DNA from: Propioniciclava flava
GTDB lineage: Bacteria; Actinomycetota; Actinomycetes; Propionibacteriales; Propionibacteriaceae
DNA length: 64,000 bases
Reading direction: 5' to 3'
Assembly (NCBI RefSeq): GCF_004126535.1
Contig: NZ_PPCV01000004.1
Coordinates: 62,001 to 126,000, forward strand
The position numbers were made by a program, and so were the translations under genes. Positions 58,327 to 62,983 of this stretch are shown one piece after another (the first letter of the stretch is position 1; every line of letters starts with the position of its first letter). Under the pieces are notes generated by a model that made no database searches, was not told where the DNA came from, and was given only the letters and a program-made list of their open reading frames with translations.

Positions 58327-59091
58327 TCAGCGTCCGCGCATCGCGCGATTGAGGCCCTTCGGGGTCGGCATGGGGCCCTTAGGCAGCGGGGCGCGGGGAC
58401 GCACCGCGTCCAGTGCACGCAGGCGCTGCTTCAGTTCGGTGATCTGGTGCGTCTGGAGGGCCTTCGGCATCTTCTCGATGTGCTTTTGCAGGTCACCCAG
58501 CTTGATCTGGTTCGCCCCATCGCCCACCATCACGGTGACGACCGGCGTCCCGAAGGAGACCTGTTCGTGCTTCTTGGCGTCGCTGGCCAGCATCTGACGC
58601 ACCCGGCCCGGGCTTCCCTCACCGATCAGCACGATGCCCATCGGGCCGACAACACGATGAACCAAGTCCATCTGACGGTCGGCGTTGATGCCCATGTCGT
58701 AGCTGTACTTCTTGTTGTTCAGCAGTTGCAGCGCGACCTCAGCGGAACCGGGTTGGCCCTCGTAACGCTTGATGGTGGCCGTGCGCACCCGACGGGTCAA
58801 GACGAACAGCGCACCCAAGAATCCGGCCATGAGGGCAAGAAGGATGTAGGACCACCACGGCCAGCCCAAGAGCAGCCCCGCGACGATGATCACGGCAGCG
58901 GTACCCAGCCCGACGCCCAGCATCCACCAGGTGACGGCCGGATCGACTTCGGCGGTGCGCTTGTAGGCCTCCACGACCTGCTTCACGCGCCCCCAGTCGC
59001 GGGGATCGTCGCTGTTCTTCTTGCGCAGTTTCTCGGCCTTGGCGGCCGCCTTCTGCTCCGCGGCGAGTTGTTTCGCCTTCTCGCTAGCCAT
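58327..59091 (-). CDS. DUF4191 membrane protein
   Basis: 254 residues. A charged N-terminal helix ([20 protein letters not shown]) is followed by two membrane helices at about 56-76 and 80-98, then a soluble domain with [29 protein letters not shown] and [38 protein letters not shown]. This is the DUF4191 family, found only in actinobacteria and nearly always directly after lipA, as here. It overlaps the lipA 3' end by 8 bases. Function is unknown; the fixed link to lipoate genes suggests a shared role. Confidence 0.93.
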
Positions 59092-60043
59092 GCTGATTCA
59101 CTTTCACGTTCGTTCGGGACGCCTTCTTGCGGGCTTCGATCGCCTGCCGGTAGAGCCGGCCCGCGCGATACGACGAGCGGACGAGCGGCCCCGAAAGCAC
59201 TCCCGCATATCCTAGGGCTTTCGCCTCGTCTTCGAGTTCGGCGAACTCCTCCGGCGTCACCCAGCGGTCGATCGGGTGATGCAGGGCCGAGGGGCGCAGG
59301 TACTGCGTGATGGTGATGAGGTCGGTGCCGGCCTCGCGCAGGTCCACGAGTGCCTGGGTGATTTCCTCACGCGTCTCGCCCATGCCCAAGATCAGGTTCG
59401 ACTTGGTGACCAGCCCGAACTGGCGGGCCTTGTCCAGCACCCCGAGGCTGCGGTCGTAGTCGAAGGCGGGGCGAATGCGCTTGAAGATGCGGGGGACCGT
59501 TTCGACGTTGTGCGCGAACACTTCGGGGCGCGACTCGAACACCGTCTGCAATGCGGAGTCGGCGCCCTTGAAGTCGTCCACCAGCAATTCCACCCCGGTG
59601 CCGGGGTTGAGTTCGCGGATCCGGCGGCAGGTCTCGGCGTACAGCCAGGACGCGCCGTCGGGCAGATCGTCGCGAGCGACGCCGGTCACGGTCGCATACT
59701 TCAGGCCCATCTCCTTGACCGATTCCGCGACGCGGCGGGGCTCCTCCTTGTCGTAGGAGGTGGGGCGACCGGTCGCGATCTGGCAGAAATCGCAGCGGCG
59801 CGTGCACTGATCGCCACCGATGAGGAACGTCGCCTCGCGGTCCTCCCAGCATTCAAAGATGTTGGGGCAACCCGCCTCCTGACACACCGTGTGCAGCCCA
59901 CCATCGCGCACACGCTGCTGCATGTCGCGGTATTCCGGGCCCATCGTGGCGCGCGTCTTGATCCACGAGGGTTTGCGTTCGATCGGGGTCTGCGCGTTCT
60001 TGGCTTCGATCCGGAGGAGGCGGCGTGGTTGGGTGTCGGTCAC
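59084..60043 (-). CDS. lipA: Lipoyl synthase
   Basis: Radical SAM enzyme of 319 residues that inserts two sulfur atoms into octanoyl groups on E2 and GcvH proteins. The auxiliary cluster ligands lie in [15 protein letters not shown] and the radical SAM triad in [29 protein letters not shown] and [10 protein letters not shown] are further family marks. The length is typical. The GTG start at 60043 follows TAGGAT by exactly 6 nt. It heads a three-gene unit with DUF4191 and the OYE gene. lipB and an E2 gene, its substrate pathway, lie 2-3 kb away on the same strand. Confidence 0.96.
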
Positions 60044-60049
60044 AGGCTC

Positions 60050-60055
60050 ATCCTA
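60050..60055 (-). promoter_or_regulatory. -10 box TAGGAT for lipA
   Basis: TAGGAT on the minus strand, 6 nt before the lipA GTG. Confidence 0.55.
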
Positions 60056-60074
60056 GACTTGCAGGTCAGCAGAC

Positions 60075-62276
60075 TCAGGCGTCGGCGTCGCCGGGGCGTC
60101 GGCCCAGCGCTTCGAGGACCGGTTTGAGCACCAGCCACCATTGGTCGATCGGGCGGCGGGCATGCCAGTCGACCAGATCGTCAAGTTCCTTGACCGACCG
60201 CATCCCTTCGGGGGTCGCGAAAGTGTGCTGGGCGGAGTGGGTCTCGAACTGTGCCGACATCCAGTCGATGACCGACGCCGCAAAACGGACCCCGTTGATG
60301 CGGTCGAAAGGCGAGGGCACGCCGCCTTGCTGGACGTGCCCGAGCACGGCCCCGCGGACGCTGAACCCGCCTTGGCCCTCTGCCTCGAACATGCGGGTCA
60401 GCAGATCGGTGGTGTAGAACTCCGAGGCGTTCTCGTTGCGGATCGACAGCCAGAAGTTCTGCCCGCGGCCAAAAGCGCGCACCATCGCGTCCACATCGTG
60501 CTTGAGGTCAGCGATGGTGATGCCGTCCTCATTGAGGTACACGCGCTCGGCGCCCGCCGCGACACCCGTCGTCAGGGCCAAGAATCCGCACCGCCGACCC
60601 ATCGTCTCCACCACGAAGGCCCGCTTGGATGCCGTCGCCGACTGCTTGATGCGGTCCACGGCCTGCACGTCGACGTTCAGGGCTGAATCAGCCCCCACCG
60701 CCATCTGCAGCCCCGGAAGGTTGTTGTCCAACGAGGCGGGCAACACGACAATCGGGATGCTCAGGGCAGGGAAACGCTTGCGTTCGGCGTTGATCCGGCT
60801 CAGCGCCCGGTAGGCCTGGAAGCCGCCGATGATGACGATGCCGTCAAGTTCGTGGGTCTCGATCGAGCGGGCGACCGCGTACAGATCGCCATCGCCGGGG
60901 ATGCTGCGGCGCGTCCCGAGATTGGCCCCGGCAGCGGCTTCCCAGCCTTCGACATCTCCCCAGGTCAGGTCGCGAAGGTCGCCCTCGATCAGCCCGGGGA
61001 AGCCACCCTGGATGCCGACCATGTCGTGGCCCTGGTCGACCCCCAGGCGCACGACGGCACGTGCCGTCGGGTTCATGCCCGGGGCCAGGCCCCCGACGTT
61101 CATGACGCCGATGCGCTTGGCGGACGCCTCCCGAACCACGTTGGGTCGCGCTTCCGACAGCCGCTGGAACACGTGGGCCATCTGGACGAACGAGTGACCG
61201 CGCGCAGCCATGGCCTCCTCGTAGCGTCCCTCGGCGATCGAGGTGGCGACAGCCTTGGTGTCCTTGACGGCCTCCAGCAAGGACATGGCGTGCGGACGAT
61301 TCGCACGGACGCCGATCACCTGGGGTTCGCGGTCACCGTAGAGGACCTCATCGACGGCGGCGCAGCCCACCATCGAGGCCATCCACCGGTCATAGGCGCT
61401 GGGGACGCCGCCGCGCTGCACGTGGCCCAAAATGGTGACGCGGGCGTCCTCACCCATCTCGTCGGCCAGCACCTTGCGGACGGCATCGGCGGTGATGGGG
61501 TTGCCCTCGCGGTCGGCGGCGCCCTCGGCGACCACCACGATGGAGGAGCGTCGTCCGGCATTGCGGGCGCGGCGCAGCACGGTGGCCATGTGCTCGTGCC
61601 AATCCGCTGCCGGGGGCCGCTCGGGGATGAACGCGTAGTCCGCACCGCCCGCAATCGCGCTCATCAAGGCCAGGTAGCCGCAATGGCGCCCCATGACCTC
61701 CACGACGAAGCTGCGCTGATGCGAGGCCGCCGTGGAGGCGATGGCGTCGATGGCTTCGGTGATGCGATGCAGTGCCGAATCCGTGCCGATGGTCATGTCG
61801 GTGCCGACCATGTCGTTGTCGATCGAGCCGACCAGCCCGGCGACACGCAACGTGGGGTGCTCGGCGGCGTCCTGGGCGGTGATCTGGCCCCAAGCCACCA
61901 AAGCGTCAATGTGGTCGGGCCATTCGTCCCGCAAGACGTCGGTGCCGGTGAGGGATCCGTCGCCTCCGATGACGACGAGACGATCGATCCCGGCGAGGAT
62001 CAGGTTGAGGACGGCGGTCCGGCGTCCTTCAGGCGTCCGGAAGGCGGCACAGCGGGCCGTTCCGATGACGGTCCCGCCCTGGATCATGATGCCGCTGACG
62101 TCTTCCCACGACATCGGGCGGATGAAGCGCCCGCCGTCCACGGCGCCCTGCCAGCCCTCGTAGATGCCGTACACCTCGACACCGGCAGTGATGCCTGCAC
62201 GGACGACGGCTCGCACCGCCGCATTCATACCGGGGGCGTCTCCGCCCGACGTCAAAACCCCGATGCGTACACTCAC
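60075..62276 (-). CDS. pfkA: Tandem two-domain 6-phosphofructokinase of eukaryotic type
   Basis: 733 residues, twice the usual bacterial length of about 320-340, built as two PFK domains. The N-half (1-365) keeps the catalytic set: TSGGDAPGMNAAVRAVV, GGDGS at 104-108, VGSIDND ending at 155 with the base Asp, and VEVMGRHCG at 192-200. Gly107 and Gly150 predict ATP, not pyrophosphate, as donor. The C-half (385-733) has NVGGLAPGMN, GGFQA at 484-488 and SLDNN at 515-519, so its catalytic residues are lost, while VETMGRRCGF and HVQQGG remain. This is the same division of labour as in animal and fungal PFK-1. The GTG at 62276 follows TAGTCT by 7 nt; the open codons upstream belong to lipB. Confidence 0.93.
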   Translation of the reverse strand: MSVRIGVLTSGGDAPGMNAAVRAVVRAGITAGVEVYGIYEGWQGAVDGGRFIRPMSWEDVSGIMIQGGTVIGTARCAAFRTPEGRRTAVLNLILAGIDRLVVIGGDGSLTGTDVLRDEWPDHIDALVAWGQITAQDAAEHPTLRVAGLVGSIDNDMVGTDMTIGTDSALHRITEAIDAIASTAASHQRSFVVEVMGRHCGYLALMSAIAGGADYAFIPERPPAADWHEHMATVLRRARNAGRRSSIVVVAEGAADREGNPITADAVRKVLADEMGEDARVTILGHVQRGGVPSAYDRWMASMVGCAAVDEVLYGDREPQVIGVRANRPHAMSLLEAVKDTKAVATSIAEGRYEEAMAARGHSFVQMAHVFQRLSEARPNVVREASAKRIGVMNVGGLAPGMNPTARAVVRLGVDQGHDMVGIQGGFPGLIEGDLRDLTWGDVEGWEAAAGANLGTRRSIPGDGDLYAVARSIETHELDGIVIIGGFQAYRALSRINAERKRFPALSIPIVVLPASLDNNLPGLQMAVGADSALNVDVQAVDRIKQSATASKRAFVVETMGRRCGFLALTTGVAAGAERVYLNEDGITIADLKHDVDAMVRAFGRGQNFWLSIRNENASEFYTTDLLTRMFEAEGQGGFSVRGAVLGHVQQGGVPSPFDRINGVRFAASVIDWMSAQFETHSAQHTFATPEGMRSVKELDDLVDWHARRPIDQWWLVLKPVLEALGRRPGDADA

Positions 62277-62281
62277 GCGGC

Positions 62282-62983
62282 TCAGACTAGGCCGCGCGAC
62301 GTGAGCGTGAAGGCAAGTTGCCGTTCCAGTTGCGGTTCCAATGCTCTGGCAACCTCCACCAGGGGGAGCGCGGGGCCGCCCGTCTCGTCTTGGAGGCTTG
62401 TCACCCCAGCATCGCTGATGCCGCACGGGATGATGTTCCCGAAGGGACCAGTCGCCTGTGAGGTCACGTTGAGGGCAAACCCGTGCATCGTCGTCATCTT
62501 GGCGACGCGGACGCCGATGGCGCAGATCTTGCGCTCTGGCCGCTGGCCGTCAGCCGGCAGCCAGACGCCGGTGCGTCCGTCGACCCGAATGCCGTGGACG
62601 TCCCAGTGGTCGGCCAACGTGTCGATGACCGCCTGTTCGACGCGGCGGACGTACTCCAGGGGGCCGTACTTCCGGGTCAGGGTGATGATGGGGTAGCCGA
62701 CGAGTTGCCCGGGGCCGTGATAGGTGATCTTCCCGCCCCGGTCGACGTCGACGACGGGTGTCCCGTCGCGGGGACGCTCCTCCGGCTGGGTGCGGTGACC
62801 GGCCGTGTAGACGCTCGGATGCTGCACGAACAGCACCTGAGGGCCGATCGTGCCCGCGACGACCTGGGCATGCACGTTGCGCTGCAGATCCCAGGTCTCT
62901 TGGTAGTCGCTGAGCCCGAGGTCGTCGCCGTCGAAGCCCAGATAGGTGAACGTGAATCCCTCGCGGGAGTCTTGAGGTGGCAC
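62282..62983 (-). CDS. lipB: Octanoyl-ACP:protein transferase
   Basis: 233 residues. It moves the octanoyl group from acyl carrier protein to lipoyl domains, the step before lipoyl synthase. QHPSVYTAGHRT, GGKITYHGPGQLVGYPI (substrate loop), RKICAIGVRVAKMTTMHGFALNV (catalytic Lys) and IIPCGISD (acyl-accepting Cys) are intact. The GTG at 62983 follows TAGCAT by exactly 6 nt. It ends 5 bases before the pfk start on the same strand. Confidence 0.96.
   Translation of the reverse strand: MPPQDSREGFTFTYLGFDGDDLGLSDYQETWDLQRNVHAQVVAGTIGPQVLFVQHPSVYTAGHRTQPEERPRDGTPVVDVDRGGKITYHGPGQLVGYPIITLTRKYGPLEYVRRVEQAVIDTLADHWDVHGIRVDGRTGVWLPADGQRPERKICAIGVRVAKMTTMHGFALNVTSQATGPFGNIIPCGISDAGVTSLQDETGGPALPLVEVARALEPQLERQLAFTLTSRGLV
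62284..62289 (-). promoter_or_regulatory. -10 box TAGTCT for tandem pfk
   Basis: TAGTCT on the minus strand, 7 nt before the pfk GTG. Its first base pairs fall within the last codons of lipB, so pfk can be transcribed on its own. Confidence 0.55.

Follow-up and report, generated by a model that had tools for sequence, protein, structure and literature searches.

Textbooks describe the double-length, half-inactivated phosphofructokinase PFK-1 as an animal and fungal invention, and open-access reviews and preprints up to 2026 treat both the fusion and the allosteric sites gained with it as features of eukaryotes (PMC12203962, PMC12873801, PMC12889660). The fructose-2,6-bisphosphate (F2,6BP) site of the eukaryotic enzyme is the pocket of the C-half, and a human PFKP structure has fructose 1,6-bisphosphate (F1,6BP) bound there (PMC12203962). 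A fused PFK of bacteria was looked for in the literature, of which only open-access text was covered, and no description was found. Such an enzyme is encoded in Propioniciclava flava, in the 64,000-nucleotide stretch of DNA analysed here (the window). Related genes occur widely in two bacterial phyla, and the duplication therefore probably occurred in bacteria. The window gene, which we call pfk, belongs to the curated family TIGR02478, and its interest lies in how broadly the fused enzyme is spread among bacteria and in its likely origin there. The features of the locus, all on the minus strand, are as follows.

62282..62983, minus strand: lipB, octanoyltransferase (NCBIfam), 5 bp upstream of pfk
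60075..62276, minus strand: pfk, fused 6-phosphofructokinase gene, GTG start, 733 aa, scoring 935 bits with TIGR02478 against a cut-off of 708
61242..62276, minus strand: N-half (residues 1-345), predicted catalytic PFK domain, all checked catalytic and ATP positions kept
61953..61967, minus strand: N-half GGDGS (residues 104-108), with the Mg-ATP Asp106 (E. coli D103)
61812..61826, minus strand: N-half SIDND (residues 151-155), with the catalytic base Asp153 (E. coli D127)
61677..61694, minus strand: N-half MGRHCG (residues 195-200), fructose 6-phosphate (F6P) contacts
61119..61241, minus strand: linker joining the halves (residues 346-386), model pLDDT below 50 at residues 378-383
60078..61118, minus strand: C-half (residues 387-733), PFK domain predicted to be catalytically dead and regulatory
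60813..60827, minus strand: C-half GGFQA (residues 484-488), Mg-ATP Asp replaced by Phe486
60720..60734, minus strand: C-half SLDNN (residues 515-519), Asp517 kept at the D127 position, Asn519 at the D129 position
60594..60623, minus strand: C-half R552, M559, G560 and R561 of the retained phospho-sugar pocket
60327..60434, minus strand: C-half pocket residues E615, R641 and H647, and Q650, where E. coli has R252 and eukaryotes likewise have Gln
59084..60043, minus strand: lipA, lipoyl synthase (NCBIfam), 31 bp downstream of pfk

The interval assigned to pfk by the initial annotation is spanned exactly by an open frame, with the correction that the gene lies on the minus strand. The tandem of two PFK domains that it described is borne out by PF00365, which matches the protein as two full domains (606 bits, two stretches), and so is normal local codon use (GC 0.679 and GC3 0.856, against a GC3 of 0.84-0.88 in the neighbours). 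TIGR02478 aligns at model positions 2-741 of 744 and its cut-off is exceeded by 227 bits. The open frame and the conserved residues rule out a pseudogene. Contamination with eukaryotic DNA is ruled out by the position of pfk inside a bacterial lip locus, by its local GC3 and by the occurrence of the fused gene in 102 of the 148 genomes of the family (Propionibacteriaceae). A 614-codon open frame runs antisense to pfk (window 60852-62696, plus strand) and likely reflects nothing more than the codon use of G+C-rich DNA.

The likeness to eukaryotic PFK-1 extends over the whole chain. The closest solved structures are human, rabbit and yeast PFK-1, which align end to end, and the segments of the human muscle enzyme that the initial annotation had quoted proved to be real, human PFKM residues 17-760 aligning with query residues 4-732 at an E-value of 4.8e-210 (PDB alignment). 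With PFKM the window protein shares 46.5% identity over its full length, the N-half reaching 54.7% and the C-half 40.3%; its own two halves are just 30.5% identical to each other. An AlphaFold model built from five window and locus sequences (pLDDT 81, pTM 0.84) superposes at full length on the best chains of human PFKP and PFKL with TM scores of 0.92-0.94 (Foldseek), while the short E. coli and Bacillus enzymes overlay one half of the model only. The Lys at the position of human K557 (citrate) is retained.

The catalytic residues of the N-half are intact, as in PFK-1 of the TIGR02478 type, and the motifs GGDGS, SIDND and MGRHCG reported for it are all present. The GGDGS is of the ATP type, and pfk passed none of the PPi-PFK models, the best score being 185.9 bits against a cut-off of 550. 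The C-half combines a lost Mg-ATP site with a retained F6P-type pocket, again as expected from the sequence of a PFK-1. It had been said to lack the phosphate-transfer residues; this is true of the D103 position (Phe486) and the D129 position (Asn519) but not of the D127 position, where the catalytic-base Asp517 is kept. To judge from the alignment, the decisive loss is that of D103 to Phe in GGFQA. Among 100 bacterial C-halves the D103 position is never Asp (Trp in 54, Phe in 20, Tyr in 13, Leu in nine, others in four), and the D127 and D129 positions are never both Asp. We therefore predict that the C-half of the window enzyme is inactive. The R252 position is Gln in 89 of the 100 and in all six eukaryotic rows, and the R171 position is mostly Arg or Lys in bacterial C-halves and Gly in eukaryotic ones. 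The C-half of pfk also has a GHVQQGG motif.

Occurrence was counted as genomes over the TIGR02478 cut-off, the surveyed phyla being Actinomycetota and Chloroflexota. Besides the window's own family, the fused PFK is found in 67 of 81 genomes of Actinomycetaceae (the family around Actinomyces vulturis, L006), in 25 of 396 sampled Actinomycetota and in 37 of 350 Chloroflexota; none of 14 control genomes has one over the cut-off. Named relatives of the window protein include those of Propioniciclava sinopodophylli (75% identity), a Propionibacterium MAG (78%) and A. vulturis (55%). One Chloroflexota genome (G544) has two fused paralogues, the deep divergent L007 and the ordinary L137. In several Chloroflexota (L089, L094, L098, L100, L103), a second PFK-domain frame, mostly of about 400 aa, adjoins the fused gene; these neighbouring frames share about 30% identity with the window protein. 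A 115-codon match to the fused-type N-half (L139, G286:C2:2242-2586) occurs in a genome that also has a complete copy.

The shared fusion and its direction were judged from separate N-half and C-half trees and a concatenated tree, with short PFKs as reference. The eukaryotic rows (human M and P, and the alpha and beta subunits of S. cerevisiae and K. pastoris) were taken from PDB alignments; the yeast alpha query matches the PDB chain exactly, and E. coli PfkA was a further row. The phylogeny of the separate halves, which the initial annotation had proposed as a check, places N-halves with eukaryotic N-halves and C-halves with eukaryotic C-halves (100/100 each), not with short PFKs. Because each half groups with its eukaryotic counterpart, the bacterial and eukaryotic fusions are a single event of shared ancestry. 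PFK genes are frequently duplicated, and this general point is all that speaks for independent fusions whose likeness is convergent; no result of the analysis favours them. The C-halves not only group with those of eukaryotes but also share derived changes with them (a bulky residue in place of D103, Gln in place of R252, an identical gap following R72), and convergence, ruled out by the half-trees, is in our estimate scarcely credible. The direction of descent is less clear. Two divergent, long-branched fused copies from Chloroflexota (L007 and L136) split first in both half-trees, and the remainder, eukaryotes included, holds together at 100/100 (N-half) and 99/96 (C-half). In the AU test, the C-halves reject monophyly of all bacterial sequences (p 0.011) and the N-halves do not (p 0.077); the concatenation, with outgroup sites counted twice, rejects it at p 7.8e-6. 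The C-half of L007, in addition, retains more ancestral residues (TIDN, GHVQRGG). These trees give moderate support to a placement of the eukaryotes inside the bacterial diversity of the fused PFK. Lateral transfer into bacteria from an early eukaryote, which would keep the fusion a eukaryotic invention, draws on the patchiness of the fused gene across Actinomycetota and Chloroflexota and on the order of eukaryotes and bacteria within the main clade, which is left open once L007 and L136 are set aside (bacteria as one clade, p 0.58). The deepest branches are nevertheless bacterial in both halves, and this, the rejected bacterial monophyly and the ancestral residues of L007 make such a transfer, in our view, quite improbable. 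The trees favour a bacterial origin without proving it, because long-branch attraction of L007 and L136 to the outgroup is possible and Amoebozoa are missing from the data.

The function of the C-half has to be judged from what it has kept. In 66 non-redundant bacterial C-halves, conservation is 98-100% at the pocket positions corresponding to E. coli R162, M169, G170, E222, R243 and H249; all six are highly conserved, against 50 of the 347 C-half columns that reach 97% (hypergeometric p 7e-6). No PFK-2 (PF01591) was found over the cut-off in 14 genomes with a fused PFK, the window genome included. The initial annotation had asked which effector is bound in a bacterium where F2,6BP is not expected, and because of this result we regard the question as a real one in the host and F2,6BP as an unlikely natural ligand. 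From the conserved pocket and the lack of PFK-2 over the cut-off in these genomes we infer that the effector is a sugar phosphate, F6P or F1,6BP rather than F2,6BP. In this species F6P may be the better fit, since Asp517 at the catalytic-base position would repel a 1-phosphate. The conservation of the pocket could instead serve tetramer packing. In a rival reading the C-half is a mere scaffold, there to complete the tetramer without binding any effector. The drift of the catalytic Asp positions in C-halves fits this idea, as does the part that the C-half of human PFK plays in stability too (PMC12203962). However, it is exactly the phospho-sugar contacts that are invariant while ATP-site positions vary, and we think a pure scaffold unlikely. 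That the C-half is still active, or uses another donor, might be argued from Asp517 and R561, both kept in the window protein. None of the 100 C-halves has the Mg-ATP Asp and none retains both D127 and D129, which makes this very improbable.

The genes lipB, pfk and lipA are co-directional, pfk starting 5 bp past the lipB stop and ending 31 bp before lipA. The start-linked promoter claimed for pfk is thus unsupported: a consensus scan found no promoter-like site, although a scan for the sigma-70 consensus is weak evidence in a G+C-rich actinobacterium. The loci compared were window 59084-62983, L144-L150, L162, L164 and L165. Eight species of the genus, this one included, have the window-type gene placed between the two lip genes. 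Two genomes (G053 and G104) have lipB-lipA with no pfk between and a fused PFK, 55-56% identical, elsewhere in the genome; a third (G011) has lipB-lipA with no pfk between and a fused PFK is absent from its genome. In the trees the window type is separate from other Propionibacteriaceae copies. Together, these patterns point to relocation into the lip locus, or lateral acquisition there, within the genus. In the relative that lacks a fused PFK (G011) there is just a weak match, of the size expected from its PPi-PFK. The fused gene of one single-contig genome (L145, G094:C1:2578006-2580197) is frameshifted near residue 84, which reflects either a pseudogene or a sequencing error. In the window genome pfk is the sole ATP-type PF00365 gene.

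We suggest that pfk encodes an ATP-dependent 6-phosphofructokinase that shares its ancestry, and also its fusion, with animal and fungal PFK-1. The N-half, with its intact active site, would make F1,6BP. The C-half would be a dead copy in which a bulky residue blocks the Mg-ATP site and the fructose-phosphate pocket is retained; this pocket would take up, as an allosteric signal, a phosphorylated sugar that bacteria already have (F6P or F1,6BP), much as its eukaryotic counterpart binds F2,6BP. Both the fusion and the catalytic loss of the C-half would be older than the divergence of the bacterial enzymes from the eukaryotic ones and would most likely have arisen in bacteria. To this reading as a whole we assign a probability of about 0.77. 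A fuller history, in which the gene was duplicated and fused and its C-half disabled in bacteria, the disabled half was first a sensor of F6P or F1,6BP, and the gene then passed to the ancestors of animals and fungi, where this half was retuned to F2,6BP as PFK-2 appeared, is offered tentatively, its odds a little short of even. The bacterial enzymes may change when and where a textbook gene fusion is placed. Being a wide branch that lacks PFK-2, they also offer a natural experiment on the signal to which the disabled half responded before F2,6BP.

Animal PFK-1 (PFKM, PFKP, PFKL) is likewise a full-length tandem with an active N-half and a dead C-half that retains the sugar-phosphate pocket, whereas the window enzyme is bacterial and has no PFK-2 partner. 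The window C-half also has Asp at D127 and Arg at R171, where the six eukaryotic sequences compared have Ser and Gly. Yeast PFK alpha and beta (S. cerevisiae, K. pastoris) have the tandem and the C-half changes in common with it, S. cerevisiae at 43-46% identity, but unlike the window enzyme have an additional N-terminal domain and two subunit types (PMC12203962). The short bacterial PfkA (E. coli, Geobacillus) is 43-45% identical to the N-half, which keeps all of its active-site residues; it is half the length of the window protein and lies outside the fused clade in every tree. Conversely, the window protein, at 733 aa, is not the single domain of about 320 aa of a short PfkA and falls outside the short clade at 100/100. 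The other PF00365 gene of the same genome (family NF005121, 408 aa; L003, G000:C11:287472-288338) belongs to the PFK superfamily too, but is a separate, PPi-dependent enzyme. The described family that the window protein does join, NCBIfam TIGR02478 (6PF1K_euk), is, like InterPro IPR009161 ('eukaryotic type'), named for eukaryotes, and its bacterial members show that this name is too narrow.
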